The notes under the pieces: generated by a model
The model's database searches: none
What the model was told of the DNA's origin: nothing
Seen by the model: the letters and a program-made list of their open reading frames with translations, nothing else
Source of the DNA: Nocardiopsis sp. CNT312
GTDB taxonomy: Bacteria > Actinomycetota > Actinomycetes > Streptosporangiales > Streptosporangiaceae
NCBI RefSeq assembly: GCF_000515115.1
Contig: NZ_AZXF01000019.1
Coordinates: 62,158-126,157, forward strand
Length of the DNA: 64,000 nucleotides
Direction: 5' to 3'
Shown here: positions 48,711 through 64,000 of the stretch, one piece after another
Layout: each line of letters starts with the position of its first letter
Numbering within the stretch: position 1 is the first letter of the stretch
Program-made: the position numbers and the translations under genes

Positions 48711-48876
48711 CCCTCCGGTCAGTGTGCGGGGTCGGCGGGCCCTCCCCGAACGGTTTCAGGAAGAGAACGGGCACGTGTCGTTAGCCGGGTGAGCCCTGCC
48801 CGAAACCGGGATCTTTCGGCAGTCCGTTCGGTACTGAATTCCGATTGGTTCGCGATTCCCACAGTGTCGGCGAGCG

Positions 48877-48913
48877 CCGGAGGCACGGCGGCATGAGTCC
48901 GCCGTGCCTCCGG
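48877..48913. terminator. Long perfect stem-loop
   Basis: CCGGAGGCACGGCGG (48877-48891) and CCGCCGTGCCTCCGG (48899-48913) form a perfect 15-bp stem with a 7-base loop, followed by AAAAGG. It insulates the biosynthetic region from the MBL-rhodanese gene 165 bp upstream. Confidence 0.75.
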
Positions 48914-49090
48914 AAAAGGCTTGGACGTGCAAGGACTTCACTTCCCCGGACCTTCGGTGGCAGGCCCTCCGGAAGGAGGGCAGACATTTTCTATCCGACT
49001 ATCTCCGGTGCGGCCTGAAGCCTCCTCCTCCGAGCCGGGCCGACCGGCAGCGCTCCAATCATGAAACGTCCCTTTTTGGATGCTCATGCC

Positions 49091-49153
49091 TTGACAGTGT
49101 GAGGATGATCTCCCTACCATGGGGTCGTTGCGATGCGGTTGGGAGCGCTCCCA
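49091..49153 (+). promoter_or_regulatory. Promoter with a downstream CebR operator, upstream of the LuxR regulator
   Basis: TTGACA (49091-49096) and TACCAT (49115-49120), 18 bp apart, form a good sigma-70-like promoter. The exact CebR palindrome TGGGAGCGCTCCCA lies at 49140-49153, about 13-27 bases after the expected transcription start, a roadblock position. The next plus-strand gene is the LuxR-type regulator at 49424, separated by an unusually AT-rich ~270-bp leader. Confidence 0.75.
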
Positions 49154-49423
49154 GCGAAATTCGCACACCCTGATCTGAGGTCCTGGTGATATTTGTCCCG
49201 CGTGTGAAATTTTCATGTTCCTTCACTGGATTAAATTTTCCTGGGGTTCTTGGGTCTTAGGTCTTGTTCAGGTGCTCTCTTCCCCGCTGGCTGGTTCTTC
49301 CGATCATTGCGGGGTTATTTTTATGCTCTCTTGGGGTTCTTTGTTAAAGGGGTGCTGGGGTCTCGTCGGGGGCTTGGAGGTCTCGGTCAACGAGTCGGCT
49401 CATACCATCTTTTGGATCAAATA
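49154..49423 (+). other. AT-rich leader upstream of the LuxR-type regulator
   Basis: About 270 bp clearly richer in A/T than the rest of the window, with runs such as GTTATTTTTATG and GAAATTTTCATG. An open frame continues upstream of ATG 49424 to about 49250, but its composition does not look coding. No gene is assigned. It could be a long 5' untranslated region or a horizontally acquired boundary. Confidence 0.45.
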
Positions 49424-50137
49424 ATGACCGTGAGTGGCGCAGAAGATAATTGCTTGGTCAGTCGGGACTCCGAATCTCCGATGCGTGAATCGGGGCTGTG
49501 GCGGAACTGTTCGGATCAGTTGGTCGGCACGCAGGTGATCGTCTCGGTCGCGGACAGTGTGCTGAGGCAGGGTATGCGGACCCTCATGTCTGAATTCCCG
49601 CTCTGGGTGCCACTCATCTCTCGGGACGTTCGGAGCGTCGACTTCGGATCGATCGACCTGTCCCGCTGCGTCCTGATTCTCGCCGATGCCGACATCGGAT
49701 CCGTCCAGTGGTCCGATATCCCTCTTTCCTGCAAGGTCTTGATCCTGATCAGAGATCCATCGCGAATCGAATTTATGGAGGATTTCTCTAGGGCTGACGG
49801 CTTTCTCCTGCAAAGCAAGTTGAATGCAGGGATCATCGCCGACGCAGTGTCCCGTGTGCTGTCCGGAGACTTCCCCATGCCCTCTGAAGTGGCACGGGAG
49901 CTCCTGCTCCAGGGGTCGCACCAGGTCAGGACGGCGATACGTTCCACTCGGATAACCGAACGCCAGCGCGAAACCCTGATCCTTCTTTCGGAGGGTCTCA
50001 GTAATAGGCAGATCGGGCGGAGGCTTCGTATTTCTGAGCACGGTGCAAAGCGGTTGGTGACAAGTGTCCTCGCGAAACTCGATGCCCCCAACCGTGCTTC
50101 TGCAGTGGCATCGGCGATGCGCCAGGGAATTTTGTAG
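49424..50137 (+). CDS. LuxR-type transcriptional regulator with degenerate receiver domain
   Basis: A 237-aa protein with a C-terminal LuxR helix-turn-helix (TERQRETLILLSEGLSNRQI, then LRISEHGAKRLVTSVLAKLD). The N-terminal ~150 residues are receiver-like (VIVSVADSVLRQGMRTLMSE) but lack the acidic pair and a clear phospho-acceptor Asp, so activity is probably not controlled by phosphorylation. Codon usage is less GC-biased than in its neighbours. ATG 49424 has only a weak GGAT upstream. It lies immediately before the biosynthetic operon on the same strand and is its likely cluster-situated activator; a CebR box in its promoter region suggests carbohydrate control. Confidence 0.8.
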   Translation: MTVSGAEDNCLVSRDSESPMRESGLWRNCSDQLVGTQVIVSVADSVLRQGMRTLMSEFPLWVPLISRDVRSVDFGSIDLSRCVLILADADIGSVQWSDIPLSCKVLILIRDPSRIEFMEDFSRADGFLLQSKLNAGIIADAVSRVLSGDFPMPSEVARELLLQGSHQVRTAIRSTRITERQRETLILLSEGLSNRQIGRRLRISEHGAKRLVTSVLAKLDAPNRASAVASAMRQGIL

Positions 50138-50688
50138 TCCAATATGAAAGGAATTTGTGCTCTGAATTTCAGGATCACCGCTCCCGAGATGGGGTGTCGA
50201 GGGGGCGGTGGCTGTCGGTGAAGATGCAGGTGGAAGACGTATGGTGCGCTTCTGGGGTTCCCGGATGGCAAATGGACCTTCCGGGCGGCTTGTCCTGCTG
50301 TCCTGTACGGCGTCACTTCGGCCGTAAAGGACGGTCAAGGCCGAATCGATGGTCCTCCTGGCACGCCGAGGTGTGATCCGAGCAGGTCAGCGGGGAGCAA
50401 CCCCTGGAACAGCGTTCTCTCGTGGAAACAGTGAATTATCGGTGTCTCAAGAGAAGGAAGTGGTGAACGTCGTGGCCGACCTTCCTGTCGAACACGTGGG
50501 CCGGCGGGCGGACGTACCGGATACGACCTCGGGAAACACGCTTCTCTCCGCATCGCGGAGCCGGATATTCGACCGGGTATGCCCGGTCGGGTATGGCTGT
50601 TCATCCGCTGGATCACACCTTGTCCCGGTCGGCGGACCTCTGCATGATCGGTGTGTTCCGGAGGTGAGGGATACCGAGAGGTGAGTTG
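50138..50688 (+). promoter_or_regulatory. Promoter region of the biosynthetic operon, with an 18-bp palindrome
   Basis: 551 bp without a gene I can support. GACCGGG-TATG-CCCGGTC (50571-50588) is a palindrome with perfect 7-bp arms about 100 bp upstream of the acyl-AMP ligase start and is a candidate binding site for the adjacent LuxR-type regulator. Small open frames ending at 50376 and 50684 have weak coding character and no recognisable product. Confidence 0.5.
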
Positions 50689-52494
50689 ATGGATGTTCTT
50701 CCGAAGGTCGAGTCGGGTCCCACCCTTGTCTCCTGCCTTGTGGCGCACGCGAACTCGGTTCCGAACAAGGAAGCCGTCAGTTTCGTGGCCAATCCCCTGG
50801 AGAACTCGGTAGAAACCCTCGATTATGCGGCCCTCGACCGGGGGGCCCGTCGTGTGGCGGCCCTGCTGCAACGCGACTTCTCCCCGGGAGATCGCGCGCT
50901 GCTGCTGTACCCGCCGGGAACGGCGTTCTTCACAGCGTTCATCGGGTGCCTCTACGCCGGGGTCGTACCGGCGGTCGCCCCGCTGCCGGACGGCCAGCGG
51001 CACCGCAGCGACCGGTCGGGAGAGATGATCCGCAGTATCGGAGCGTCCGCTCTGCTGACCGAGGAATCAGCGGTGGGGGACACCGGGGCATGGGTCGGCA
51101 CCCTCGACGACGCTCCTCCCGTCATCGTGACCGACCGGTCCGAGGAACTTCCCGGCCCCGGCGCCTGGAGCGACCCCGGGACCGGACCCGACCATGTCGC
51201 CTTCCTCCAGTTCACCTCCGGATCGACGAGCACGCCCCGCGGCGTCGTGGTGCGCCACCACAACATCGTTGACAACGCCGAGCACTTCAGCCGGGTCAAC
51301 GGGTGCGGATCCGAGAACCGCTTCGGCGGCTGGCTGCCGATGCACCACGATTTCGGCCTGCTGTCCATGTTCCTGTTCCCCCTCTACTACGGGGCGAGCA
51401 CAGTCCACATGCCGGCGTCCGCCTTCCTGCGGCGTCCGCACTCCTGGCTCCACCTGATCGACCAACGCGACCTCGACTTCTCCTCCTCTCCGAACTTCGG
51501 TTACGACCTGTGTGTTCGCCGTATCACCGATGAACAGGCCGAGGGGATCGATCTCTCGCGGTGGAAGTGGGCGCTTGACGGTGCCGAACCGGTGCTGCCC
51601 GCGACCCTGCGCCGTTTCTCACGGCGGTTCGAGGACTTCGGATTCCGTCCCGGAACCCTGGTCGCGGGCTACGGGCTGGCCGAGGCGACCCTCATGGTGA
51701 CCTGCGACGCCGGGGACGAACCCCCCACCGTGGTCCGCGTCGACGCGGCACGCCTGGAGAAGGGCGAGTTCCACCCGGTCCCCGGGGACGAGCCGGGACG
51801 CGAACTCGTGCGCTGCGGCGACGTCGAGATCCCCGGCTCCGACACACGGCTGCTGATCGTCGACCCGAACACAGGGGATGTCCTGCCCGACGGCGCGGTG
51901 GGGGAGATCTGGATCAGCGGCTCCAGCGTGACGCACGGGTACTGGGACCGTCCCGAGGAGACCAGGGCGTCGTTCGACGCGGCCACCTCCGACGGGCGGA
52001 GCGGGTTCCTCCGTACGGGCGACCTGGCCGTGGTCCACGGCGGAGGGCTCTACGTCACCGGCCGGATGAAGGAAGTCCTCATCTACCACGGCCGCAACAT
52101 CTACCCGCATGACCTCGAGGCCGCGGCACGGTCGGCGGACGTGTGCCTGGAGAACGGCATCGGTGCGGCCTTCACCGTGCGCGGTGCCGAGGACAAGGAG
52201 GAGATCGCCCTCGTTCACGAGGTGCAGCCGCGCGGTGCCGACGCCGATCGGCTCGAGGAGGTGCTCACCCGGATCCACCGGAGCGTCTCGCGGGAGTTCG
52301 GGGTGGCCCTGGGCGCTGTCGTACTCGTACGCCGTGGCGGGGTCAAACGCACCACCAGCGGAAAGATCCAGCGGCTGAAGATGCGTTCGGCCCTCCTCGA
52401 CGGGGAGCTCAAACCGGTGGCGGTGCGGGTGTCACCCGCGCTGAGCGACGCGGTCCCCGAGTCCCTGAGCCGGGTTCGGGGGGAGAAGCGATGA
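50689..52494 (+). CDS. Fatty acyl-AMP ligase (FAAL)
   Basis: A 601-aa adenylate-forming enzyme. Motifs: P-loop LQFTSGSTSTPRGVVVRHHN (about 173-192), WLPMHHDFGLLSMFLFPLYYG, GYGLAEATLMVTC, RTGDLAVVHGGGLYVTGRMKE and the C-terminal catalytic Lys region GVKRTTSGKIQRLK. The WLPMHHDFGL motif and spacing are those of FAALs, which load fatty or other carboxylic acids onto an ACP through the acyl-adenylate. ATG 50689 has GAGGTGA four bases upstream. It is the first gene of the coupled operon; ACP1 (56014) or ACP2 (59925) is the likely acceptor. Confidence 0.9.
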   Translation: MDVLPKVESGPTLVSCLVAHANSVPNKEAVSFVANPLENSVETLDYAALDRGARRVAALLQRDFSPGDRALLLYPPGTAFFTAFIGCLYAGVVPAVAPLPDGQRHRSDRSGEMIRSIGASALLTEESAVGDTGAWVGTLDDAPPVIVTDRSEELPGPGAWSDPGTGPDHVAFLQFTSGSTSTPRGVVVRHHNIVDNAEHFSRVNGCGSENRFGGWLPMHHDFGLLSMFLFPLYYGASTVHMPASAFLRRPHSWLHLIDQRDLDFSSSPNFGYDLCVRRITDEQAEGIDLSRWKWALDGAEPVLPATLRRFSRRFEDFGFRPGTLVAGYGLAEATLMVTCDAGDEPPTVVRVDAARLEKGEFHPVPGDEPGRELVRCGDVEIPGSDTRLLIVDPNTGDVLPDGAVGEIWISGSSVTHGYWDRPEETRASFDAATSDGRSGFLRTGDLAVVHGGGLYVTGRMKEVLIYHGRNIYPHDLEAAARSADVCLENGIGAAFTVRGAEDKEEIALVHEVQPRGADADRLEEVLTRIHRSVSREFGVALGAVVLVRRGGVKRTTSGKIQRLKMRSALLDGELKPVAVRVSPALSDAVPESLSRVRGEKR

Positions 52495-54251
52495 ACGCTG
52501 TGACACCTTCCCCGTCTCGCCCCCCGCGCGGAGACACGATGACGGTGCCCCACCTGACCCCGTCCGCGCTGGACGAACACCTGGAGCGCTCCGAGCCGTT
52601 CACCGAGCCCGTACAGGCACGCCTGGACGAGGCCGAGGAGTTCCCCGCCGCGGCCTGCCTCGAACTCGACCGGCTCGGGGTCCCCAGCTACTACGTGCCC
52701 CAGGCGCTGGGCGGATGGCTGGGGGACTACACCGATCTGATCCGTGTGATCCGCGCCGTCTCCCGCAAGGACCTCACGGTGGCCATCGCCCACGTCAAGA
52801 CCTTCCTGGGCGGAGCCACCAGCTGGGTCGCGGCCGAGGAGTCCCCCGCGGGGCGCACCGGGCAGCAGGCCCGTGCCCTGGCCGACCGGATCGTCGGGGG
52901 AGCCGTGGTCTCCTGGGCCCTCACCGAACCGGGACGCGGCAGTGATCTGCGCTCCGGGGAGACGTTCGCCGAGCACACGCCCTCCGGATACCGCCTCAGC
53001 GGGCGCAAGTGGCCGGTCAACAACGCCACACGCAGCGACCTGCTGACCGTGCTGGCCCGTACGGGGGCCGGGAACGGAGCCCGGGACTTCACCCTTCTCC
53101 TGGTCGACAAGGACACCCTCGCCGGGGACGGCTACGAGCACCTGCCCAAGGCGCGCACCCTGGGCATTCGGGGAGCGGACATCAGCGGGATCGCCTTCGA
53201 CGGCGCCTTGGTCCCGGAGGGGAGCACCGTCGGTGCACCCGGGGCCGGGTTCGAGCTGGTTCTCAAGGCGTTCCAGCTCACACGCACCATCTGCGCGGGC
53301 CTGTCCCTGGGAGCGGCCGACCACGCCCTCGACGTGACCTGGCATTTCGTGCGGCAGCGGTATCTGTACGGCAAGGCCCTGCGAGGCTTTCCGCACGTAC
53401 GCGCCAAGTTCGGTGAGCTGTTCGCCGCCCGCCACACCGTCGAGGCGCTGTCGATGGTGGCGGGCAGGTCGGTGCACGCCCTGCCGGAGGAGATGAGCGT
53501 CTACTCCGCCGTGGTCAAGGCACTGGTGCCCGAGATCGTCGACGACGTGGTCATCGGATGCGGAGAGCTGCTCGGATCCCGTGCCTTCCTGAGGGAGGAA
53601 CTGCGGTCGGGTAGCTTCCAGAAACTGGAACGGGACCATCGGATCGTCGGCATCTTCGACGGCAACCGCTACGTCAACCGCCAGTCGCTGATCCGGCAGT
53701 TCCCCCGGCTGGGCACGTGCTGGCGTGACGGTGAACTCCGGGAGCGTGGACTGCACGCGGCCGTCGACCCGAACGCCCCCCTGCCCCGGGACGGCCGGCT
53801 CCGCATGATCTCGCGGACCGGGTGCAGCCTGTTGCAGGCCCTGCCGTACGCGGTGGACGGACTGCGCGCGGCGGGCGCCTCCCCGGCCGCGATCCGCTCC
53901 GCCCGGCGCGTCCTGGACCTGTGCGACCGGATGCACGCGGGCTTCGTCGACGACGACACGCGCACGGCACGCATCGGCGCGGAGCTGTTCGACACGGCCA
54001 GGTCCTACGAGCTCTGCGTCGCGGCCTCGGCCGTGATCCACACGTTCCTCACACGTGTGGGCCGAGGGGATACGGACGCCGAGTTCGACGAGCTGTGCCT
54101 GCGGGCGTCCCTGGCGTTCGTCCTCTCCCGGTTGGAAGGCCGGCCCGGGGCCCGGGAGGTGTACGGCGCCGTCGCCGACGCGCTGGAGGTCCACCTCGGC
54201 CAGGCGGACAGGCTGCCCAGTCCCATGGATGAAGAGGAGCTCCGCCGATGA
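52491..54251 (+). CDS. Acyl-CoA dehydrogenase homologue 1 (586 aa)
   Basis: A flavoprotein of the acyl-CoA dehydrogenase family with a C-terminal extension (586 aa versus ~390 typical). The FAD-contact motif is intact (WALTEPGRGSDLRSG, about 143-155). At the catalytic-base region it reads KLERDHRIVGIFDGNRYVNR (about 378-397), with Asp390 where many family members have Glu. It probably dehydrogenates an ACP- or CoA-bound acyl chain. ATG 52491 overlaps the FAAL stop (ATGA) and its stop overlaps the next ACAD gene. Its neighbour at 54248 looks degenerate, and the two may form a heteromer. Confidence 0.86.
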   Translation: MNAVTPSPSRPPRGDTMTVPHLTPSALDEHLERSEPFTEPVQARLDEAEEFPAAACLELDRLGVPSYYVPQALGGWLGDYTDLIRVIRAVSRKDLTVAIAHVKTFLGGATSWVAAEESPAGRTGQQARALADRIVGGAVVSWALTEPGRGSDLRSGETFAEHTPSGYRLSGRKWPVNNATRSDLLTVLARTGAGNGARDFTLLLVDKDTLAGDGYEHLPKARTLGIRGADISGIAFDGALVPEGSTVGAPGAGFELVLKAFQLTRTICAGLSLGAADHALDVTWHFVRQRYLYGKALRGFPHVRAKFGELFAARHTVEALSMVAGRSVHALPEEMSVYSAVVKALVPEIVDDVVIGCGELLGSRAFLREELRSGSFQKLERDHRIVGIFDGNRYVNRQSLIRQFPRLGTCWRDGELRERGLHAAVDPNAPLPRDGRLRMISRTGCSLLQALPYAVDGLRAAGASPAAIRSARRVLDLCDRMHAGFVDDDTRTARIGAELFDTARSYELCVAASAVIHTFLTRVGRGDTDAEFDELCLRASLAFVLSRLEGRPGAREVYGAVADALEVHLGQADRLPSPMDEEELRR

Positions 54252-55978
54252 GCACACCGAACCCGGCCGACAGGGTCGACACGTTGGAGCGCCTGCTCGG
54301 GGACCCGGAGGACGTCGGGAACCCCCTGGGGTACGGTCCCCTTCTGGAGGCCGACGAGGCCGACCTGATGTTCGCCGCAGGGGAGCGGGCCCTGGACGAC
54401 TTCGGGCTCAACGCCGAGTTCGTCCCCTCCGAGTACGGCGGCAGGCTGCGCGGCCTGGACACGTTCATCGGCATCATGCGGGCCGTCTACCGCCGCGATC
54501 CCTCACTGGGCCTCGGATACGGGTTCAGCTCGTTCATCGCCGGCGTCAACGTCTGGTCGGCCGGTGACGAGGACCAGTGCCGAGAGGCGGCCTCCCTGCT
54601 CCTGAGCGGCCAGCGGATCGCGGCCGCCTATCACGAGCTGGCCCACGGCAACGACTTCGCCGGCACCGACTGCGCCGCGGTGAGGGACGCCTCCGGGCGC
54701 CTCCTCCTGTCAGGCCGCAAGGAAGTGGTGTGCAACATCCAGCGGTCGAGGGCACTGGTGGTGCTGGCACGCACCGCTGAGGGCCGGGGCAGCCGCAACC
54801 ATTCACAGCTGCTGATCGATAAGGCCGCGCTCCCCCCCGAGACACTCGTCGACCTGCGGCGCTGGCCGAGCGTGGGCATGCGGGGCGTGCAGCTGGGCGG
54901 GATGGAGTTTCGCGACTGCCCCGTCCCCGACTCCGCCGTGCTGGGCGACGAGGGCCAGGGCACCGAGACGGCCCTGCGGTCCTTCCAGCTCACCCGCATC
55001 GCCCTGCCCGGGATGCTGTGCGGCGTCCTCGACTCGGGCCTGCGCCTCGCACAGAGGCTCGCCGTGGAGCGCGAACTCTACGGCGCACCCGTGTCGGCGC
55101 TGCCGACCGTCCGGGCGCAGTTGGCCGACGCCTTCGTGGACCTGTTGATCAGCGACTGCGCCACGACCGTGGCCGCGCGCGGCGTGCACCTGCTGACCGG
55201 GCAGTCGAGTGTCCACGCCTCGGCGGTGAAGTACCAGGTCTCCGGGCACCTGATGGGGGCTATGGACAGCCTGTCTGCCGTGCTCGGCGCCAACTTCTAC
55301 CTGCGCGAGGGCCGTTACGGCGCCTTCCAGAAGCTGCTGCGGGACCTCAAGCTCGCGGGGTTCGGCCACGCCGCCCGCGTCGCCTGTCTCGTCACGATGC
55401 TGCCGCAGATGCCCGTGCTCGCCCGCCGCGGCTGGACGGAGGGCCCCGAGGCGCCTTCCGAGGTGTTCCGCCCGGACGTCGAAGTGGGAGCACTGCCCTT
55501 CCAGCGGTTGAGCCTCTTCGGGCGGGGGCGCGACAGCCTCCTGACGGCCCTGGCCACGGGGGCCGAGCGCATGGCGGCGGACGGTGCCGCCGAGGGCGCG
55601 GAGGCCGCGGAGCTCCGCACGCTCGTCGGGCAGCTGCTCGACGAGTCCGAGGCCCTGCGCCGGGAGTGCGCGCTGCTGCGCCCGTCGGACATCGGGGTGG
55701 ACGCCCCACCGGAGGTCCTTCGGCTTCCGGCGCGTTACGCGGCCCTGCTGTCCGCGTCGGCCTGCCTCAACGTCTGGCTGGAGTCGGGGACCCGCGGGGA
55801 CCCGGCGCTCCAGGACCCCGCCTGGCTGATCGCCGCGCTCCACCGCCTGGCCCGGGGCCTGGGACACGCCGGGGTCGACGACATCGGTCCGGTGCGCGAG
55901 CGCCTGTACTCACAACTGGCCGAGCGGTACGAGGCCGCTGAGTCCTTCGACCTGTCACGACGCCGACTGCCGTCCTGA
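54248..55978 (+). CDS. Acyl-CoA dehydrogenase homologue 2, divergent motifs (576 aa)
   Basis: A 576-aa ACAD-like protein, same length class as its upstream neighbour. The usual TEPG-GSD flavin motif is replaced by AAYHELAHGNDFAGTD (about 126-141), and the catalytic-base region reads FQKLLRDLKLAGFGHAARVA without an obvious Glu or Asp equivalent. It is therefore probably a non-catalytic or altered partner of ACAD 1, like the heteromeric ACADs of mycobacterial steroid degradation. ATG 54248 overlaps the upstream stop (ATGA). Confidence 0.82.
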   Translation: MSTPNPADRVDTLERLLGDPEDVGNPLGYGPLLEADEADLMFAAGERALDDFGLNAEFVPSEYGGRLRGLDTFIGIMRAVYRRDPSLGLGYGFSSFIAGVNVWSAGDEDQCREAASLLLSGQRIAAAYHELAHGNDFAGTDCAAVRDASGRLLLSGRKEVVCNIQRSRALVVLARTAEGRGSRNHSQLLIDKAALPPETLVDLRRWPSVGMRGVQLGGMEFRDCPVPDSAVLGDEGQGTETALRSFQLTRIALPGMLCGVLDSGLRLAQRLAVERELYGAPVSALPTVRAQLADAFVDLLISDCATTVAARGVHLLTGQSSVHASAVKYQVSGHLMGAMDSLSAVLGANFYLREGRYGAFQKLLRDLKLAGFGHAARVACLVTMLPQMPVLARRGWTEGPEAPSEVFRPDVEVGALPFQRLSLFGRGRDSLLTALATGAERMAADGAAEGAEAAELRTLVGQLLDESEALRRECALLRPSDIGVDAPPEVLRLPARYAALLSASACLNVWLESGTRGDPALQDPAWLIAALHRLARGLGHAGVDDIGPVRERLYSQLAERYEAAESFDLSRRRLPS

Positions 55979-56013
55979 CCCCGGTCACACCGCACGCACC
56001 GAGGAGGGATCCG

Positions 56014-56304
56014 ATGCCCGAAGACAAGAACGAGGCCCCTGTCAACGATCTGGAGCAGTGGCTGACCCGGCAGGTGGCCACCTACCTGGACCGGAAACCG
56101 GAGGAGATCGACCAGCACACGCTGTTCACGGACCACGGACTGGACTCCGTCTACGCCCTGACCTTCTGCGCCGATATCGAGGACTTTCTGGGGATCACCG
56201 TCTCGGACACGCTTCTCTGGGACTACGCGACCATCCGTGCGTTGGCCGATCACCTGACCGAACTCGTCGCCGGGTCGGGGCGGCAGGGGGCCGGCACGCC
56301 ATGA
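56014..56304 (+). CDS. Acyl carrier protein 1
   Basis: A 96-aa ACP with the phosphopantetheine site DHGLDSVYAL (Ser45) in a four-helix sequence of typical length. AGGAGGGATCCG precedes ATG 56014. Its stop overlaps the KAS III-like start (ATGA). It lies between the ACAD pair and KAS III homologue, so it probably carries the FAAL-loaded acyl chain through dehydrogenation and condensation; the alternative is that it carries the amino-acyl unit. Confidence 0.9.
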   Translation: MPEDKNEAPVNDLEQWLTRQVATYLDRKPEEIDQHTLFTDHGLDSVYALTFCADIEDFLGITVSDTLLWDYATIRALADHLTELVAGSGRQGAGTP

Positions 56305-57236
56305 CAGCACTCGAAGCCGTGTCCGCGTACCTGCCCTCCGAGCCGGTAACGATCGACGAGATCAGCGAGAGGACCGGGCAGACCCCGCGCCAGCTGCGCC
56401 TCTACAAGAGGTTCTACGGGCTCTCGGAGGTCCGCTACGGCAGGGAGCAGTCGCTCACCGACCTCATGGTCTCGGCCGTGGACGGGCTGAAGGCCCTGTC
56501 CGGACAGGAGCACCGTGTGCGCTACCTCGTCCACGCGCGGACCCTGCACACGGTGTCCCCCTACCCGGCCAACCCCCTGCACGACGCGCGCCGGAGACTC
56601 GGGCTGGAGCACGCCTCGGCGTTCACTCTCACCGAGCACGCCTGCGCGAGCGGGCTGCTGGCGGTCGACCTCATCGGGCGGCTGCTGCGGGCCGACGGAG
56701 ACCCCGAGGCCCTAGGCCTGCTCATCACCGGGGAGAAGGCCTTCACCCCGTTGGCCCAGTACATCCCGGACACCACGTACATGGGTGAGGGTGCGGCCGC
56801 GGTCCTCCTGCGGTCCGGGGACACCGGCGGCGACACCCTGCGCAGCTACGCCTCCCTGACCCGCGGTGAGTTCGCGGCCGGCCTGTGGATGGATCCGGAG
56901 GTCTCCAGCCGTTTCCAGGAGGTCTACGAGAAGACCCTGACCGACGTGATCACACAGGCGCTCGAAGAAGCCGGTATCGGGCTCGAGGATCTGCGGCTGA
57001 TCCTGCCGCACAACGTCAACAGGCATTCGTGGAGGCGCTTGTGCAAACGGATGGGATACCCGGCCGACCAGGCTTTTCTCGACAACGTCTCCTGGGTCGG
57101 ACACTGCTTCTGCGCGGATTCCTTCATCAACTACCGCTCGGCCGTGGACCATGGCTCCCTCCGTTCGGGCGACTACTACCTGATGGCCGCCGTCGGGTTG
57201 GGAGCCACTTTCTCGGCCATGGTTTTCCAGCACTGA
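56301..57236 (+). CDS. KAS III-like condensing enzyme with Cys-His-His set
   Basis: A 311-aa FabH-fold protein. Nucleophile Cys115 in LTEHACASGLLAV and His237 in ILPHNVNRHSW are conserved; the third position, Asn in FabH (GNTSAAS), is His268 in VSWVGHCFCADSF. Loss of this Asn is known from KAS III relatives that transfer acyl groups or condense without a normal malonyl-ACP decarboxylation, including PqsC. A Cys-less KAS III-like protein is encoded at 60207, suggesting a PqsB/PqsC-type heterodimer. ATG 56301 overlaps the ACP1 stop. Confidence 0.84.
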   Translation: MTALEAVSAYLPSEPVTIDEISERTGQTPRQLRLYKRFYGLSEVRYGREQSLTDLMVSAVDGLKALSGQEHRVRYLVHARTLHTVSPYPANPLHDARRRLGLEHASAFTLTEHACASGLLAVDLIGRLLRADGDPEALGLLITGEKAFTPLAQYIPDTTYMGEGAAAVLLRSGDTGGDTLRSYASLTRGEFAAGLWMDPEVSSRFQEVYEKTLTDVITQALEEAGIGLEDLRLILPHNVNRHSWRRLCKRMGYPADQAFLDNVSWVGHCFCADSFINYRSAVDHGSLRSGDYYLMAAVGLGATFSAMVFQH

Positions 57237-57255
57237 GAGGACATGATTCTTCGCA

Positions 57256-58632
57256 ATGTCCACATTCGCGAAAAGACTGAAATCCGCCGTGGCGGACGGC
57301 CCCGAATCCGTCTTCGTCTTCCTCGGGAACATCGAGGTGGAGGAACAGTGGGCGCAGGGTGAGGCCGGTCTGCCGACCCTCTCGTCGCACGGAGCCAGAG
57401 CCGTCACCCACCGCATGGACGAGTTCGCCCTGCTACTCGGTGAAGCGGCCGACCACGTCCTGCTCAAGACCGCCCCGGACCCCGATTTCCACGCCTACCT
57501 GGCCGACTACGGGCTGGCCCGGTCGCGAGTGCACGCGGTGGGGGAGCAGCGGACCGGAAGGACCGTGACCAAGGACGTCCTGGACGATCCGGGCACCCTT
57601 GCCCACCTGGAGGAGCTCGGTCGGCAGGGGGCCTACCTGGCGCCCCACGGCGTGTCCGATCTGGAGCAGGAGGTGGCCGAGCGTTGCGGGCTCCGCCTCG
57701 CCACGAGCCCGGCCGACCTGTGCAAGCGGGTCAACAGCAAGCTCTTCAGCCGCAGGCTCGCCGACCGCCTGGGCATCCGCCAGCCCCAGGGGATGGTCTG
57801 TGAGACCCCCGAGGAGCTCGCCGAGGCCGTGGAGTACGCCGAGGGCGTCCTGGCCGACGGCCGCACGATGGTCGCCAAGGACGCCTTCGGTGTGTCCGGC
57901 AAGGGCGTGATGGTCCTGGAGGACCGGCGCCGGCTCGACTGGTTGAAGCGCACCGTGGAGCGGTCCCACAGCCGCAGCGGCAAGCTGGGCCTGATCCTCG
58001 AGGAGTGGATCTCCAAGGACAAGGACCTGAACTACCAGGTCCTCGTCGCCAAGGACGGGTCGGTCGAATTCGACTTCGTCAAGGAGGCCATCACCGAGAA
58101 CGGGGTGCACAAGGGCCACCGCATGCCGGCGGGCCTCACCCCCGGCCACGAGGCCGAGATCCGTGACGCGGGCCTGGCGATCGGCCGGGCACTGGCCGAC
58201 GAGGGCTACCGGGGGGTCGTCGGTATCGACGCCCTCCTCGGGACGGACGGCCGGGCCTACCCCCTCACCGAGATCAACGCCCGCTACAACATGTCCACCT
58301 ACCAGGCCGTGTTGCAGGAGGTCTTCATGCGGGACCAGAACCATGCCGAGGCCCGGCAGTATCCGCTGCGGCTCAACGCTCCGCTGCCGTTCTCGGTCCT
58401 GCGCAAGGAACTGGACCCCCTGATGGCCGGCTCGCCGGGCGAACCGGGGATCGTCATCAACAACTTCGCCACGGTCAACGCCGTCGGAGGCCCGTCGAAG
58501 GGCCGTGAGCACTTCGACGGACGTCTGTACGCCTTCCTGGTCGGACCGGACGCGGAGTCGGTCGCGGCCCTGGACGACCGACTCGGCCGCACCCTCGCCG
58601 ACATCGAGAAAGGAGAGGTGAGCAGCGCGTGA
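57256..58632 (+). CDS. ATP-grasp ligase (BtrJ-like candidate)
   Basis: A 458-aa ATP-grasp enzyme. An N-terminal ~150-residue pre-ATP-grasp region is followed by the ATP-binding lid TMVAKDAFGVSGKGVMVLED (Lys208 and the Gly-rich loop 212-217), EEWISKDKDLNYQVLV, and the metal-binding LTEINARYNMS (about 335). Such ligases couple a carboxylate to an amine or thiol through an acyl phosphate. Placed beside a PLP decarboxylase and an ACP, it resembles BtrJ of butirosin biosynthesis, which loads L-glutamate on an ACP. ATG 57256 lacks a clear ribosome-binding site. Confidence 0.8.
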   Translation: MSTFAKRLKSAVADGPESVFVFLGNIEVEEQWAQGEAGLPTLSSHGARAVTHRMDEFALLLGEAADHVLLKTAPDPDFHAYLADYGLARSRVHAVGEQRTGRTVTKDVLDDPGTLAHLEELGRQGAYLAPHGVSDLEQEVAERCGLRLATSPADLCKRVNSKLFSRRLADRLGIRQPQGMVCETPEELAEAVEYAEGVLADGRTMVAKDAFGVSGKGVMVLEDRRRLDWLKRTVERSHSRSGKLGLILEEWISKDKDLNYQVLVAKDGSVEFDFVKEAITENGVHKGHRMPAGLTPGHEAEIRDAGLAIGRALADEGYRGVVGIDALLGTDGRAYPLTEINARYNMSTYQAVLQEVFMRDQNHAEARQYPLRLNAPLPFSVLRKELDPLMAGSPGEPGIVINNFATVNAVGGPSKGREHFDGRLYAFLVGPDAESVAALDDRLGRTLADIEKGEVSSA

Positions 58633-59921
58633 GCGAACAGCACCGAATCCAAGGAATCGCCGTCACCGAACTCGCCGAGCGGTTCGGTACCCCCCTCTAC
58701 GTCTACGACGGGGAGGAACTGGAGCGGACCTACCGGCGGATCCGCGAGCCGCTCCACCCCGCCGTCGAGATCCTCTACTCCCTCAAGGCCAACCCCAACC
58801 TGTCGGTCTGCTCGCTCCTCGGGGGGCTGGGGGCCGGGGCCGAGGTGTCCTCGGCGGCCGAGCTCGCGGTGGCGCGCAAAGCCGGTATCGCCCCCTCCGA
58901 CACGATCTTCCTCGGACCGGGAAAGAGCGAGGGGGAGATCTCCGAGGCCCTGGCCGACGGAGTCCACTCGTTGATCTGCGAGTCCTACGGCGAACTCGAC
59001 CTCATCGACGGGATCGCCCGGGACATGGGGATCACCGCACCGGTGGCGCTGAGGGTCAACCCCGTGGAAGCGGCGCGGGGGGCCGGTCTGAGAATGGGCG
59101 GAAAGCCCCGCCAGTTCGGGATCGACGAGGGCCTCCTCATGTCCGACCCCGGCCTCGCCGACCGCTACGGCTCCATCCGGCTGATGGGGGTGCACGCCTA
59201 CCTCGGTACGCGGATCCTGGACGCGGGCACGGTGGTCGAGAACACCAGACAGATCCTCGGCATGGCCCAGCGCCTGTCGGAAAGGCTGGGTTTCCCGCTG
59301 GAGTTGGTCGACTTCGGCGGCGGGATCGGTGTCGCCTACTTCTCGGGCGAGAGCGACCCGGACATCGAAGTGCTGGCGCGAGGCGTCAACGACGCTGTCG
59401 GGGAATTCCGCGAGCAGCACCCGGAATCGCGCGTGTTCATGGAGCTCGGACGGTACCTCACCGGCAGCGCGGGTCTGTACGTGGCGCGTGTCCGCTACGT
59501 CAAGGAGTCCATGGGCCAGCTCTTCGCGGTCGCCGACGGCGGGACCAACCACCACATGGCCGCCGTGGGGATCGGTTCCTTCGCCAAGAGGAACTTCCCG
59601 ATGAGCGTCCTCAACCGCGCCCAGGAGCCGGCGGACGGGAAGTGGAACGTGACCGGCCCGCTGTGCACCCCCAACGACACCCTCGGCAAGAACGTCGAAC
59701 TGCCGCGGGTCGAGGTCGGCGACCTGATCGGTGTGCACCGCTCCGGAGCCTACGGTCCCACCGCGTCGCCCACCCGTTTCCTCAGCCACGGCTACCCGGC
59801 CGAGGTCCTGGTCCACCAGGGGACGCCGCTGCTGGTCCACGAACGGGAGAGCGTCGCCGACATCCTGGACCGCCAACCCGTGCACGAAGCCCTGATGACG
59901 AAGAGAGAAGACGGAGTCTGA
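58629..59921 (+). CDS. Fold-type III PLP-dependent decarboxylase (BtrK/LysA-like)
   Basis: A 430-aa alanine-racemase-fold decarboxylase. PLP Lys53 in LYSLKANPN, the phosphate-binding VDFGGGIGVAYFS, and the C-terminal active-site Cys in GPLCTPNDTLGKN match diaminopimelate/ornithine-type decarboxylases. In secondary metabolism this subgroup includes enzymes acting on carrier-bound amino acids, such as BtrK (glutamyl-ACP) and VinO (3-methylaspartyl-ACP). With the adjacent ATP-grasp ligase and ACP2 it probably makes an omega-amino acyl-ACP, with 4-aminobutyryl a candidate. GTG 58629 overlaps the ATP-grasp stop (GTGA). Confidence 0.86.
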   Translation: MSEQHRIQGIAVTELAERFGTPLYVYDGEELERTYRRIREPLHPAVEILYSLKANPNLSVCSLLGGLGAGAEVSSAAELAVARKAGIAPSDTIFLGPGKSEGEISEALADGVHSLICESYGELDLIDGIARDMGITAPVALRVNPVEAARGAGLRMGGKPRQFGIDEGLLMSDPGLADRYGSIRLMGVHAYLGTRILDAGTVVENTRQILGMAQRLSERLGFPLELVDFGGGIGVAYFSGESDPDIEVLARGVNDAVGEFREQHPESRVFMELGRYLTGSAGLYVARVRYVKESMGQLFAVADGGTNHHMAAVGIGSFAKRNFPMSVLNRAQEPADGKWNVTGPLCTPNDTLGKNVELPRVEVGDLIGVHRSGAYGPTASPTRFLSHGYPAEVLVHQGTPLLVHERESVADILDRQPVHEALMTKREDGV

Positions 59922-59924
59922 ACC

Positions 59925-60203
59925 ATGGAACGAACCGACGCTGAGACCGCGAAGGCCGGAGAAGAGACCGTCGCACGGATCACCGGGGTACTCGCCGGCT
60001 TCGTCACGGACGAGGGGGTCGAGATCGTGCGTTCGACACGCCTGTTCGACGACCTCGGACTCGACTCGACCAACGTCCTGGAGATGCTGGTCGAACTCGA
60101 GGCGGAGATGGACATCGAGTTCGACACGGACACCCTGGAGTTCAGTCACTTCGAGACGGTGGACAGCCTGGCCGCTTTCGTCTCCGGGATGATGAAGGCC
60201 TAG
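59925..60203 (+). CDS. Acyl carrier protein 2
   Basis: A 92-aa ACP with the phosphopantetheine attachment Ser48 in FDDLGLDSTNVLEMLVELE. It starts 3 bp after the decarboxylase stop and ends 3 bp before the Cys-less KAS III-like gene. Position suggests it carries the amino-acid-derived unit, like BtrI; this assignment relative to ACP1 is inferred. Confidence 0.9.
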   Translation: MERTDAETAKAGEETVARITGVLAGFVTDEGVEIVRSTRLFDDLGLDSTNVLEMLVELEAEMDIEFDTDTLEFSHFETVDSLAAFVSGMMKA

Positions 60204-60206
60204 CCC

Positions 60207-61100
60207 GTGACCGTCGCCCAACAGTCCCGAAGAGAGGCCCGGGTCCTTCCGGAGCCGACCCGCACGACCGCGAGGATACTGAGGAGTTTCCACCACGACC
60301 TGTCGGCGTCGCCCGGTGCGGAGATCGCCGAGGCGCCGGGGCTCCAGAGCGAGGTCGACGAGTACCTGGATGACATGCTGTCCGCCTACGGGCAGGTCTA
60401 CCAGGGGCTGCGCAGCAGGGATCCCGCGCAGACCGCCTACAACCGGCTGGCGCGCCGTCTCCTGGACGAGGCGCTCTCCAGCACGGGACGCATCGACCGA
60501 GCCGTCCTCGCCTACGCCATGCCGGACGACCAGACCGGGCACTCGGTGTGCGCCTCGATGGTCCACTCCTCACCCGGGCTCACCACGGCCTTCGCCGTGT
60601 CCGATCAAGGGGTGACGGCCCCGTTCACCGCTCTGCGCATCGCCGGCGCGACTCTGCGCGCGGACTCCGAGGAACGGGTGCTGGTGCTCGCCCTGGACCA
60701 GGCGGCGATCCCCTGGGAGCCTCCGCCGGAGACCCCCGTTCCGGGTCGCGACCTCGGAGTCGCGCTGCTCCTCGGCGGCGCGGGGGGTCTGCTGCACTGG
60801 CAGGCCACACCGGTCGACGCGGCCGGCGCCGCACGGGCGGTCGGGGAGGTCCTCGCCGACGTGCGGTCCCGGTCCCTCGGCCCGTGCACGCTCATCCTGG
60901 GGCGGCAGGTCCCCGGGCCCGACGCCCCCGGGCCGGACGTCACCGTCCGGCGCGCCCCGTCCGACCTGGTCTGCACCTCGGTGTGGAGCGAGGCGCACCG
61001 CGCGGGGACCGCCCCGGGCGGGGGCACCGTGGCGGTGGTCGAATACGACCCGGTGCTCGGATACTTCTGTGCGGTCGCAACGGGACTGGAGGGACGGTGA
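60207..61100 (+). CDS. Cys-less KAS III-like protein (PqsB-like candidate)
   Basis: A 297-aa thiolase-fold protein. VLAYAMPDDQTGHSVCASMV and AFAVSDQGVTAPFTALRIAG align with the FabH nucleophile region, but the catalytic Cys position is Val136 in DQGVTAP. The C-terminal half is short, with DLVCTSVWSEAHRAG and GGGTVAVVEYDP, and the FabH His and Asn motifs are not evident. It cannot be a conventional ketosynthase and is likely a structural or specificity partner of the enzyme at 56301, as PqsB (about 280 aa, no Cys) is to PqsC. GTG 60207. Confidence 0.74.
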   Translation: MTVAQQSRREARVLPEPTRTTARILRSFHHDLSASPGAEIAEAPGLQSEVDEYLDDMLSAYGQVYQGLRSRDPAQTAYNRLARRLLDEALSSTGRIDRAVLAYAMPDDQTGHSVCASMVHSSPGLTTAFAVSDQGVTAPFTALRIAGATLRADSEERVLVLALDQAAIPWEPPPETPVPGRDLGVALLLGGAGGLLHWQATPVDAAGAARAVGEVLADVRSRSLGPCTLILGRQVPGPDAPGPDVTVRRAPSDLVCTSVWSEAHRAGTAPGGGTVAVVEYDPVLGYFCAVATGLEGR

Positions 61101-61768
61101 CGATGCGGAGCCCTGCACCCGCCGCGGAGGCCGTGACGGACCGGCCGTGGTTCGTGGAGGCCCGTCAGGGTTCCCCGGACGAGGCATGGAGGGCACTGTC
61201 CGAAGGGCTGCCCGAAGCCCCGGTCCTCGGCCCCTCCGGACACGGCCTGACCTGCGGTTCGGTATCCGGCGCGGCGGGCCCCGCCGCCGAGCCGGTCGCC
61301 GGGATCTCCGTGGCGGGCCGGTCGTGGTCCCTGCTCGCGCGGCCCGCCACGGCCGAACGCGCTCCGGACCCGCCCCCGGGGTGGTCGGCCGGTGTCGCCG
61401 CGATCCGCCTGGGCCTGTCCCTGTGGCTGCGGGACCGGGCGGTGGCCCGGCTGCGCAAGCGCAAGGCCGGGGGAAGGGCACTCGTCCACCAGCAGCTCGT
61501 GGGGAGCGATCTGGCGTGGGCCGCGACGGAGCAGGCCATAGCGGAAAGCCTGCTCACCGGCTCGACGGAGCGTCCGGACGACCACGCGGTGCTGTGCCGG
61601 GCCAGCCGCCGCGTCACAGCGGCGGACCGGTGCGTCCTGAGACTGTTCGGGGCCTCCGGCTTCCTCAGTGACGGCCCGGGGCAGGTGGCCTACCTGTCGG
61701 AACTGATGGCGGACGCCTATCTGGAACCGGTGGCCGGTGACGGCGGGTGTGAAGGGGGGACACGGTGA
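61097..61768 (+). CDS. Acyl-CoA dehydrogenase C-terminal-domain-only protein
   Basis: A 223-aa protein. The second half (VHQQLVGSDLAWAATEQAIA, AVLCRASRRVTAADRCVLRL and FGASGFLSDGPGQVAYLSEL) resembles the helical C-terminal domain of ACADs, including the flavin-binding FG-SGF region; the N-terminal and middle beta domains are missing. It overlaps the next gene, which encodes a complete ACAD, by 4 bp (GTGA). It may be a degenerate subunit of a heteromeric dehydrogenase. GTG 61097 has GGAGG at best spacing; ATG 61103 is an alternative. Confidence 0.65.
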   Translation: MTMRSPAPAAEAVTDRPWFVEARQGSPDEAWRALSEGLPEAPVLGPSGHGLTCGSVSGAAGPAAEPVAGISVAGRSWSLLARPATAERAPDPPPGWSAGVAAIRLGLSLWLRDRAVARLRKRKAGGRALVHQQLVGSDLAWAATEQAIAESLLTGSTERPDDHAVLCRASRRVTAADRCVLRLFGASGFLSDGPGQVAYLSELMADAYLEPVAGDGGCEGGTR

Positions 61769-62928
61769 TCGAGCTGGACGATCGTCTGCGGGTACTGAGG
61801 CTGGCCGCCCGTGAGTGGGGCGAGGAGCTGAGGGAACTCGGCACGGACCTGGACCGTGATCCACAGGACACGGGCCGTTTCGCCGATGCGGTGGCGGTCC
61901 GCTACATCTCCCGCATGATGATCCCCCCCGAGTTCCAGGACACGGCTCTGCGGGAGTCGGGCCACTCCTTCCACGGTGACCGGGCGCTGGAGCGCGTGAT
62001 CGCCGTGGAGGAGTTCGGCCGCGGCGACGCCGGGGCCTTCCTCGCCGCTCCCGGGCCCTCCCTGTCGGGAGGCATCGTCGCCCTCCTGGGTGACGAAGCG
62101 CAGCAGAAGTGGTTCTTCGAGCACTGCGCAGACGACGCCGACGAGCCCGTGTGGACGTTCTTCGGCCTCACCGAACCCGACCACGGTTCGGACGCCTCGG
62201 CCATGCGGACGGCGCTGGCCCCGGCAGCCGACGGCGGCCTGCCGGTCCTCACGGGGGAGAAGCGCTACGTCGGCAACGCGGCACGTGCCCGGCTGGGCAC
62301 GGTGTTCGCGCGGACCGGCCCCGGACCTCTGGGGATCTCCGCGGTGATGGTGGAGACGGGTGCCGCGGGGTTCCACGCCTCTCCACTGCCGACCATCGGC
62401 CTGCGCGGAGCCCAGATCTGCGCGGTGCGCCTCGACGGGGTCGCGATCCCCGAGGACCGTGTCCTGGGGCGCCACCTTCCCGCGTCCTCACGCGGTATGC
62501 ACGGGGCCACCCGGATGTTCAACCAGTTTCGTCCCGGGGTGGCCGCGCTCGCCCTCGGCATCGCCCAAGCGGCCTACGACTACCTCGAACAGCACCGGGC
62601 CGAACTGGTGCGGGGCGCTGGGGAGTCGCTGGCGGACCTGGCGGACCGGCTGTCGGGCACGCGCCAGCTGGTGTGGCGGGCCGCGATGAGCGTCGACCAC
62701 GATCCCGCCCGGGGCGCTCTGGCGTCCGCAGCGAAGGCCCGGGCCACGGAACTCGCCGAACAGGTCACGCTCCGGGCCCTGGAACTGCTCGGTCCGGGGG
62801 CGCGATTCTCCCACCCCCGCCCGGAGAAATTGGCCAGGGACGCCAGAGGAGTGGAGTTCATGGAGGGGACGACCCACATGCAGCGGCTCAACGTCGCGCA
62901 AGGAGTAGTTACTGGAAGGATCGCATGA
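61765..62928 (+). CDS. Acyl-CoA dehydrogenase homologue 3 (complete, 387 aa)
   Basis: A standard-length ACAD. FAD motif TFFGLTEPDHGSDASAMRT, substrate-loop FARTGPGPLGISAVMVET, GLRGAQICAVRLDGVAIPED and the C-terminal catalytic region GVEFMEGTTHMQRLNVAQG with the expected Glu. It should introduce an alpha,beta double bond in an acyl thioester. GTG 61765 overlaps the preceding ACAD-like partner, and its stop overlaps the MATE exporter start (ATGA). Confidence 0.88.
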   Translation: MIELDDRLRVLRLAAREWGEELRELGTDLDRDPQDTGRFADAVAVRYISRMMIPPEFQDTALRESGHSFHGDRALERVIAVEEFGRGDAGAFLAAPGPSLSGGIVALLGDEAQQKWFFEHCADDADEPVWTFFGLTEPDHGSDASAMRTALAPAADGGLPVLTGEKRYVGNAARARLGTVFARTGPGPLGISAVMVETGAAGFHASPLPTIGLRGAQICAVRLDGVAIPEDRVLGRHLPASSRGMHGATRMFNQFRPGVAALALGIAQAAYDYLEQHRAELVRGAGESLADLADRLSGTRQLVWRAAMSVDHDPARGALASAAKARATELAEQVTLRALELLGPGARFSHPRPEKLARDARGVEFMEGTTHMQRLNVAQGVVTGRIA

Positions 62929-64000
62929 AACGGGAGTGGCAGGGTGTCCTGCGCTACGCGGGGCCGATGATCCTGGCGGAAGGTATCGGTACGGCGGTCC
63001 CCGTCGTGGTGATCGCGCTCATCGGGTGGATGGGTGACGATGCGCTCTACGTGCGCTCGCTCTTCATGCCCGTCGTCTTCGCCTTCATCGCCGTCCAGAT
63101 CAGCATCGCGGTGACCACACAGGTCGCCGTGGCGCTGGGTGCCGGGCGGCGGTACGACTCGGCGGCGGCCTCGGCCTGGTGGCTCGCACGTGTGGGCTTC
63201 GCGGCGACGGCCGTGGTGAGCGCGGTCTTCGTGTTCGGCGCGCCGCTGCTGGCGGACCTGCTGTCCGTGCGGCCGGACGTCCGTGAGCAGTTCGAATGGT
63301 TCGTGCGGTGGGTGGCCCTGGCCCAGATCACGGGGATCGGCCCGGTCGTGTGCGCCGCGGTTCTGCGCGGGGCCGAGCGGCCGCGGTCGGCGGCGGCGCT
63401 GCTCCTCACGGCCGGCGGCCTGGAGGTGGTCGGGGTCGCGCTGCTGGGCCTGCCGGGCACGGTCGGCTGGGGGCTGTGGTCCGTCCCGGTCGCGATCGCC
63501 GCGTCCGGTGTGATCGTCACCGCGGCGGGATGCTGGCTGCTTTGGCGCGTCGGCTTGTGGCGCCGGGACAGCCCGGTCGGCGGGCGCAGTGAGTCCACGC
63601 TCCTGAAGCAGGTCGGAGTCCCGGTGGGTGCGGCCTACGGCGTCATCTTCGGCAGCAACTTCGCGCTCACATGGGTGGTCAGCGTCTTCGGAGCCGCCAC
63701 CATCGCGGGCTTCGCGGTGGCCTACACCCTGCAGACGATGATCATCGTGCCGGGCATGGCCATCGGGTCCGCGACCGCGATCGTGGTGAACCAGTGCCGG
63801 GGCCGGGAGGAGTTCGACCGTCTCCGCAAGGTGGTCCACGCGGGCCTGGCCATCACCGGTGTGCTATACGCGCTGATCGCCCTCGTGTGCTGGTCGGGGC
63901 GCGACTGGATCGCGCTCGCGATCGCCCAGGACCCCGGTACGGCGTCCGAGGCGGCCTCCTTCCTGGCGGTGGTCGCACCCACCTACCTGTTCCTCGGGGT
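62925..64000 (+). CDS. MATE-family efflux protein (partial, continues past the window)
   Basis: An open frame to the window end, 358 codons visible. It starts MKREWQGVLRYAGPMILAEG and has about nine hydrophobic helices in the visible part, with the internal MATE-type arrangement VAVALGAGRRYDSAAASAWW in the first half and ATAIVVNQCRGREEFDRLRK in the second. MATE proteins export cationic or amphiphilic small molecules by Na+ or H+ antiport. As part of the biosynthetic operon (ATGA overlap with ACAD 3) it is the likely product exporter or self-resistance protein. Confidence 0.85.
   Translation, partial: MKREWQGVLRYAGPMILAEGIGTAVPVVVIALIGWMGDDALYVRSLFMPVVFAFIAVQISIAVTTQVAVALGAGRRYDSAAASAWWLARVGFAATAVVSAVFVFGAPLLADLLSVRPDVREQFEWFVRWVALAQITGIGPVVCAAVLRGAERPRSAAALLLTAGGLEVVGVALLGLPGTVGWGLWSVPVAIAASGVIVTAAGCWLLWRVGLWRRDSPVGGRSESTLLKQVGVPVGAAYGVIFGSNFALTWVVSVFGAATIAGFAVAYTLQTMIIVPGMAIGSATAIVVNQCRGREEFDRLRKVVHAGLAITGVLYALIALVCWSGRDWIALAIAQDPGTASEAASFLAVVAPTYLFLG

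Follow-up and report, generated by a model that had tools for sequence, protein, structure and literature searches.

In butirosin biosynthesis the trio BtrI-BtrJ-BtrK, an acyl carrier protein (ACP), an ATP-grasp ligase and a fold-III pyridoxal phosphate (PLP) decarboxylase, handles an amino acid tethered to the carrier; L-Glu is loaded by its gamma-carboxylate, and a BtrH-type transferase serves an aminoglycoside acceptor. Type II polyketide synthases (PKS) use a catalytic ketosynthase (KS) and a Cys-less chain-length factor (CLF) on a discrete ACP. In PqsBC, the 2-heptyl-4-quinolone synthase, a FabH-type pair includes one subunit without catalytic residues; the triad of FabH is Cys-His-Asn, and PqsC has Cys-129 and His-269 with Val-299 replacing Asn (PMC4807248). 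Lipopeptide assembly commonly starts with a fatty acyl-AMP ligase (FAAL) that works with a free-standing ACP and with a condensation (C) domain of the C(III) type, the genes for acyl-CoA dehydrogenases (ACAD) being placed between those of the FAAL and the ACP when the lipid is unsaturated (PMC9113097). In the rotihibin cluster these functions correspond to RthH (FAAL), RthI and RthJ (ACADs) and RthK (ACP), with desaturation ascribed to both ACADs (PMC8552735). Parts resembling those of these systems were found in a single operon of 13 genes located at the right end of a window of 64,000 nt from Nocardiopsis sp. CNT312 (NZ_AZXF01000019.1, positions 62,158 to 126,157; contig 6 of a 4.68-Mb genome). 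This operon consists of two fused modules and a probable coupling gene: module 1 (FAAL-ACAD-ACAD-ACP1) is known in kind, and module 2, a seven-gene amino-acyl/ketosynthase cassette that is portable and patchily distributed, is the unusual part, rather than its union with the FAAL.

The gene order is FAAL-ACADA-ACADB-ACP1-KS1-ATP-grasp-PLP decarboxylase-ACP2-KS2-small protein-ACADC-MATE-C domain, and all named genes are intact frames on the + strand that belong to the families given by the initial annotation for the first 12 (50689-64253; see Table 1). Their tight coupling was confirmed, with seven 4-bp overlaps and two 3-bp gaps among the 11 junctions from FAAL to MATE, although the description of the remaining gaps as a few bases was slightly generous for the 35 bp before ACP1 and the 19 bp before the ATP-grasp gene. 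The MATE gene stops beyond the window, and inspection of the genes to the right of position 64000, as had been advised, revealed a 13th gene that begins 3 bp later and encodes a free-standing C domain, which changes the likely joiner of the two modules. When it is counted, 10 of 12 junctions range from a 4-bp overlap to a 3-bp gap; the next called gene (65820-66263) is on the opposite strand. The identical set of 13 genes occurs in the same order in Glycomyces fuscus TRM 49117 (locus L004), the ATP-grasp proteins being 79% identical, so that the operon is not a chance array. Family scans detected no modular PKS or nonribosomal peptide synthetase (NRPS) gene among the 13, in agreement with the earlier reading, yet the C domain is itself an NRPS-type part; the longest protein called on C6:42200-148299 has 1195 residues (flanking genes being gene calls without family scan). 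No thioesterase occurs in the operon.

The modular organization became apparent when other genomes were compared. Scanning a species-genome collection with the ATP-grasp protein yielded 24 loci (8 in Actinomycetota and 16 in Bacillota), to which were added a Streptomyces decoyicus plasmid and five genomes of the strain's own family, making 31 loci with its own. Module 2 is complete within the stretch read in 26 of the 31, in two phyla and not always on one strand, with the small protein replaced by its counterpart F7 in Bacillota. Incomplete loci include L005, with no decarboxylase within reach, L006, which lacks KS2, the small protein and ACADC, and J043, which is cut by contig ends (8.9 kb). 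KS1 was found in 31/31 loci and KS2 in 29/31; the FAAL set was found in three only (the present locus, L004 and J003) and is missing from 28. The KS pair thus belongs to the amino-acyl cassette and not to the FAAL, and its near-universal presence without the FAAL set suggests that it acts on the shared ACP2-bound unit. It is therefore probably not the enzyme that joins the FAAL-derived acyl chain to an amino acid, the role that had initially been implied for it.

These counts were obtained with hidden Markov models (HMM) at thresholds of at least 60 bits (at least 40 for the ACPs, KS2 and the small ACAD-like protein) on script-called genes, among which small genes may be missed. The ATP-grasp gene is universal by selection, as it served as query, and the loci are not independent, since many are close relatives: 16 are from Bacillota, 13 from Paenibacillus, three from Micromonospora and two from near-identical Streptomyces. 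Some loci were pieced together or renamed (J003, L037 with L038; J065, L039 with L040; J023, L041; J073, L042; J043, L043). Left out of the 31 were L036 (G013, on a 6.3-kb contig), L031 (regarded as the contig of L005 on account of its equal length and overlap) and L049-L054, 4-kb loci of the Paenibacillaceae sample described below. The first 25 loci supplied the 41 rows of the KS1 alignment and the families of 24 rows to which reference is made below; family scans covered chosen accessory genes, and homologues in sister loci were assigned by clustering.

The cassette was present in 8 of 100 genomes of the strain's own family, its own included, and this genome was the sole match among 396 of the phylum Actinomycetota, a lower bound because four candidates were scored per genome. 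Nine of 98 genomes of a Paenibacillaceae sample matched, five at 72% identity or more (query genome included) and four at 28-30%. A maximum-likelihood tree of 24 ATP-grasp proteins separated Bacillota from most Actinomycetota, with J065, J023 and J073 as a third group; the present protein pairs with that of L004 and not with that of J003, these deeper forks being weakly supported.

Within module 2, alignments and profile comparison agreed with the initial annotation for both KS-like proteins. The triad of KS1 is Cys115-His237-His268, with the Cys kept in 41/41 rows of the family, His237 in 38/41 (two Tyr and one gap) and His268 in 40/41 (one gap). KS2 has neither the catalytic Cys nor a His at the sites of either KS1 His; its family profile matches FabH weakly (4ryb, E 2e-4) and that of KS1 with a probability of 82.5% (E 1e-5), and its predicted model has a mean predicted local distance difference test score (pLDDT) of 81.8. 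The two look like a catalytic subunit and its inactive partner. Such an arrangement, together with the discrete ACP, resembles the KS/CLF pair of type II PKS, from which it differs by belonging to the FabH (β-ketoacyl-ACP synthase III) family and by having neither a ketoreductase nor a cyclase in its cassette; no more than one or two extensions would be expected here.

The trio formed by the ATP-grasp, decarboxylase and ACP2 genes had been called BtrIJK-like, and this resemblance is supported. The decarboxylase has BtrK as its best PDB match (E 1e-91), followed by a diaminopimelate decarboxylase (6e-58), and its PLP-binding Lys53 and Cys346 are kept in 24/24 rows; an ordinary diaminopimelate decarboxylase was rejected, since the match to BtrK is far stronger. 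The ATP-grasp protein gave a weak PDB match (8ynd, E 6e-6), and its likeness to BtrJ is suggested by the gene context of a homologue: one Paenibacillaceae homologue of 28-30% identity occurs in an operon that also encodes a small ACP-like protein (recognized by eye), a BtrK-like protein and a protein containing a BtrH_N domain. Unlike the butirosin system, the present operon adds the FabH-type pair, an ACAD and the small ACAD-like protein and has no aminoglycoside gene; no match to the BtrH or BtrG families was obtained in scans of its 13 genes and, of the flanking genes, the LuxR-type gene. A cispentacin-type pathway was also considered and rejected, as ACP2 scored 31 bits against AmcB for a cut-off of 80. 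The putative catalytic base of ACADC is the canonical Glu367, with Glu in 24/24 rows. The small protein, whose Bacillota counterpart F7 was recognized with a profile probability of 97%, is possibly a partner of ACADC; its weak kinship to ACADs hangs on a marginal Pfam match (see Table 1).

Module 1 begins with a protein whose annotation as FAAL was upheld: NCBIfam FAAL models are among its best matches, yet below their cut-offs, and PDB matches include the fatty-acid--AMP ligase FadD23 (E 9e-80) and, as the best, 7r7f (E 9e-110), titled "polyketide synthase", which we take to be a FAAL domain. In the FAAL-linked long ACADs the usual catalytic Glu is replaced by Asp in 4/4 A-type and by His in 6/6 B-type alignment rows, distant relatives included. 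The same four genes, with the same two ACAD types in the same order, were found in Burkholderia glumae on a plasmid, flanked by an NRPS/reductase pair on one side and a P450 gene on the other, and the order is also that of RthH-RthI-RthJ-RthK (PMC8552735). In rotihibin and in ramoplanin/enduracidin-type initiation sets the acyl chain starts an NRPS, whereas here it faces a free-standing C domain and module 2. By analogy with these systems, module 1 most likely supplies an unsaturated fatty acyl-ACP1.

From the gene content, families and catalytic residues described above we infer the following substrates, partners, order of steps and product. The FAAL would adenylate a fatty acid and transfer it onto ACP1, where ACADA and ACADB would install one or two double bonds, as deduced from lipopeptide clusters having the same four genes. 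In module 2, the ATP-grasp ligase would join the side-chain carboxylate of an amino diacid, most likely L-Glu and possibly L-Asp, to ACP2, and the BtrK-like enzyme would then strip the alpha-carboxylate to give gamma-aminobutyryl-ACP2 (or beta-alanyl-ACP2). KS1, as the catalytic subunit, and KS2, as a Cys-less partner in the manner of PqsB or of a chain-length factor, would act on this unit, most likely by a single decarboxylative C2 extension, which is the first choice because the KS1 triad is complete. Oxidation of the unit by ACADC, perhaps assisted by the small ACAD-like protein, would follow. The C domain may finally link the fatty acyl group of ACP1 to the amine as an amide, and the MATE protein would export an unsaturated N-acyl amine; because the operon has no thioesterase, this product may cyclize on release, for example to a pyrroline or a lactam. 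The C domain is a more natural joiner of acyl chain and amine than the KS pair, and coupling by this domain is favoured because FAAL:ACP:C(III) is a known initiation mechanism (PMC9113097) and because its gene is the last of the operon. We give a rough probability of 0.48, slightly under one in two, to this pathway in which two modules are coupled by the C domain, with a remodelled amino-acyl-ACP2 unit N-acylated by the fatty acyl group of ACP1.

Several observations weigh against it. In the C domain, Ser replaces the first His of HHxxxD, the HxxxD part being retained (SHIATDF), and in J003, which has both modules, a single-sequence HMM detected no C domain over the 29 kb read, arguing against a general need for the domain. 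Loci J023 and J073 carry KS1 and KS2 but neither ACADC nor the small protein, and the family profile of the latter fails to match that of ACADC (0.1%). The KS1-KS2 and ACADC-small protein dimers are putative, and the use of malonyl by KS1 is suggested by its triad only. Finally, the cassette of Streptomyces longwoodensis (L009:4558-8931; sister locus L010 in S. galbus) is preceded by glutamate mutase E-like, asparagine synthetase A-like and flavin mononucleotide (FMN)-enzyme-like genes, the first of which hints at an Asp-type substrate (3-methylaspartate) more than at Glu.

Among the alternatives, the one that survives best, though we consider it rather unlikely, is that KS1-KS2 is an acyltransferase pair that takes the amino-acyl unit off ACP2 and places it on a different carrier or acceptor, no C-C bond being formed, and that ACADC desaturates this unit to an allylic amine (4-aminocrotonyl, for instance). 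CerJ and ChlB3 are acyltransferases for other acyl groups and have a Cys-His-Asp triad. KS1 does match both in PDB (E 7e-8 and 2e-7, respectively), but its match to FabH is better (1e-14) and its third residue is His. The variety of partner genes among loci would suit an acyl transfer, as would the seven-gene cassette itself, in which family scans detected no ketoreductase, dehydratase or acyltransferase family, though L028 has a FabG nearby and L005 a MaoC-type dehydratase.

Slightly less probable still is a PqsBC-like reaction, as had been implied at first, by which KS1-KS2 would form a C-C bond between the acyl chain supplied by the FAAL and the amino-acyl unit and so give a cyclizing aminoketone. 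The comparison holds for KS2, which lacks the triad as PqsB does, and not for KS1, whose PDB match to PqsC (1e-4) is poorer than that to FabH and which retains a His as third residue where PqsC has Val (PMC4807248). Further unlike that system, the operon has no anthranilate-pathway gene and module 2 brings ACP, ATP-grasp and PLP enzymes. Wherever the FAAL set occurs (three loci) it immediately precedes KS1, and no C domain was detected near the modules of J003, two points in favour of such a joining; the conservation of both KS genes in loci devoid of the FAAL set, and the presence in this operon of a C domain able to form an amide, argue against it.

It is improbable that the operon is an ordinary member of a family whose product has already been described elsewhere. 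The literature search was confined to openly licensed papers, which leaves room for such a case, but it returned no description of the module 2 cassette, in line with the initial annotation, and we know of no pathway that the parts of the operon fit. Ordinary lipid or storage metabolism, in which FAAL, ACAD and FabH families do occur, is very improbable given two dedicated carriers, a BtrK-like decarboxylase, an exporter and the patchy presence reported above.

To return to coupling by the C domain, the cassette has unlike assembly-line neighbours in other loci, which fits an ACP2-bound product passed to different partners. These neighbours are a C domain and a type I PKS in J065 (the first residues of the PKS reading as a KS domain by eye), an NRPS in L028 that shows a C-domain motif at residue 142, and an NRPS in L009 that reads C-A-T-TE in the portion available. 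In J023 (L041:3097-10411) the cassette, devoid of ACADC, adjoins genes that encode an AurF-type N-oxygenase, an amino acid:carrier protein ligase-like protein, an S-adenosylmethionine (SAM) methyltransferase and an asparagine synthase-like protein; L042 (J073) has a part matching this region, families having been scanned in L041 only, and the two are possibly an N-oxidized variant. As for L006, a 303-aa protein was rejected as KS2-like after poor alignment and no Pfam match, and a butirosin-like locus was rejected there as well, the BtrH-like gene suspected by eye being unconfirmed by Pfam.

A different setting was found in Bacillota, where all 16 loci have a small gene directly before KS1 (L013:8687-8923, with equivalents in L011-L024, L026 and L027) whose product resembles the precursor of a ribosomally synthesized and post-translationally modified peptide (RiPP). 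These products share an N-terminal stretch, M-x-(I/L)-K-A-x-P..., followed by an arginine-containing core, in most cases a tandem repeat. In the 13 Paenibacillus loci a penta- or hexapeptide bearing a single Arg is repeated 6 to 20 times in tandem; Bacillus sp. RO2 has three units that end in RC, and the two Viridibacillus loci have short copies with CKC or CGKC as their last residues. The gene also occurs in the five closest genomes of the Paenibacillaceae sample, one of which (L049) is the L013 genome again. An arginase-family gene occurs in 14/16 loci (recognized with Pfam in L013 and by clustering in the others), its metal-binding motifs being kept in 14/14. Present in 16/16 loci are a second KS1/KS2-like pair (KS1' and F8), a homologous MATE exporter and F9, which matches the lipid A acyltransferase family in L013 but not in L021 and L022; in L021 an M16 peptidase C domain is fused to F9. 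We regard the precursor-like genes as a candidate RiPP class, for which no description was found in the literature searched, and their presence together with that of the arginase-family gene suggests that the building block decorates peptides in these bacteria. The arginines may be converted to ornithines and then acylated by the ACP2 product.

Upstream of the operon, the LuxR-type gene is probably the cluster regulator. A stretch of low G+C content (48711-50688; 58.6% as compared to 71.6% for the part of the contig read) contains this gene and suggests a foreign origin for the stretch. Further upstream, the region 19602-41777 resembles by eye one for cobalamin synthesis and uptake (gene calls; no family scan).

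Table 1. Genes of the 13-gene operon and of the adjacent regulator (positions are those of the window, numbered onward past its end at 64000)
Feature	Position	Strand	Supporting matches and remarks
LuxR-type regulator	49250..50137	+	PF00196 E 4.8e-9; 551 bp upstream of FAAL
FAAL, fatty acyl-AMP ligase	50689..52494	+	PF00501 (AMP-binding); start ATG 50689
ACADA, long acyl-ACP dehydrogenase-like	52491..54251	+	PF00441/PF02770/PF02771
ACADB, long acyl-ACP dehydrogenase-like	54248..55978	+	PF00441
ACP1, putative fatty acyl carrier	56014..56304	+	PF00550 E 1e-14; GLDS motif in translation
KS1, FabH-family ketosynthase	56301..57236	+	PF08541; PDB FabH 2ebd E 1e-14
ATP-grasp amino acid:ACP ligase, BtrJ-like by context	57256..58632	+	PF18604 (PreATP-grasp), PF02786
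PLP fold-III decarboxylase, BtrK-like	58629..59921	+	ornithine/DAP-type decarboxylase by family scan; PDB BtrK 7ru7/2j66 E 1e-91
ACP2, putative amino-acyl carrier	59925..60203	+	PF00550; attachment Ser in 24/24 rows
KS2, FabH-like subunit without Cys-His-His	60207..61100	+	no Pfam match
Small ACAD C-terminal-domain-like protein	61097..61768	+	PF00441 23.3 bits, cut-off 22.4
ACADC, acyl-CoA/ACP dehydrogenase	61765..62928	+	PF00441, PF02770; PDB acyl-CoA dehydrogenases E 6.5e-30
MATE-family exporter	62925..64253	+	PF01554 E 2e-27; runs past the window end
Free-standing NRPS condensation domain	64257..65678 (G000:C6:126414-127835)	+	473 residues; PF00668 E 1.8e-18

Overall, the cluster is a new combination of known enzyme kinds. 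We tentatively propose, as a wider reading that is possible though less likely than not to hold in full, that module 2 represents an undescribed portable pathway of Actinomycetota and Bacillota, in which the KS pair and an ACAD would remodel the decarboxylated amino acid on its carrier, making a reactive amino-acyl unit for unlike partners, namely a fatty acyl group via the C domain, NRPS/PKS lines and, in Bacillota, arginine-core peptides whose Arg would first be converted to ornithine by the arginase-family enzyme; this last case would represent a new type of RiPP/polyketide hybrid. Should the amino-acyl unit made by module 2 be a fixed one, one building block could be assigned for the 26 loci with a full cassette. 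Lipo-amines, NRPS/PKS products and candidate arginine-repeat RiPPs would then be linked via one unit and, besides PqsBC, a FabH-derived pair of catalytic and inactive subunits would be added that operates on an amino-acyl-ACP.

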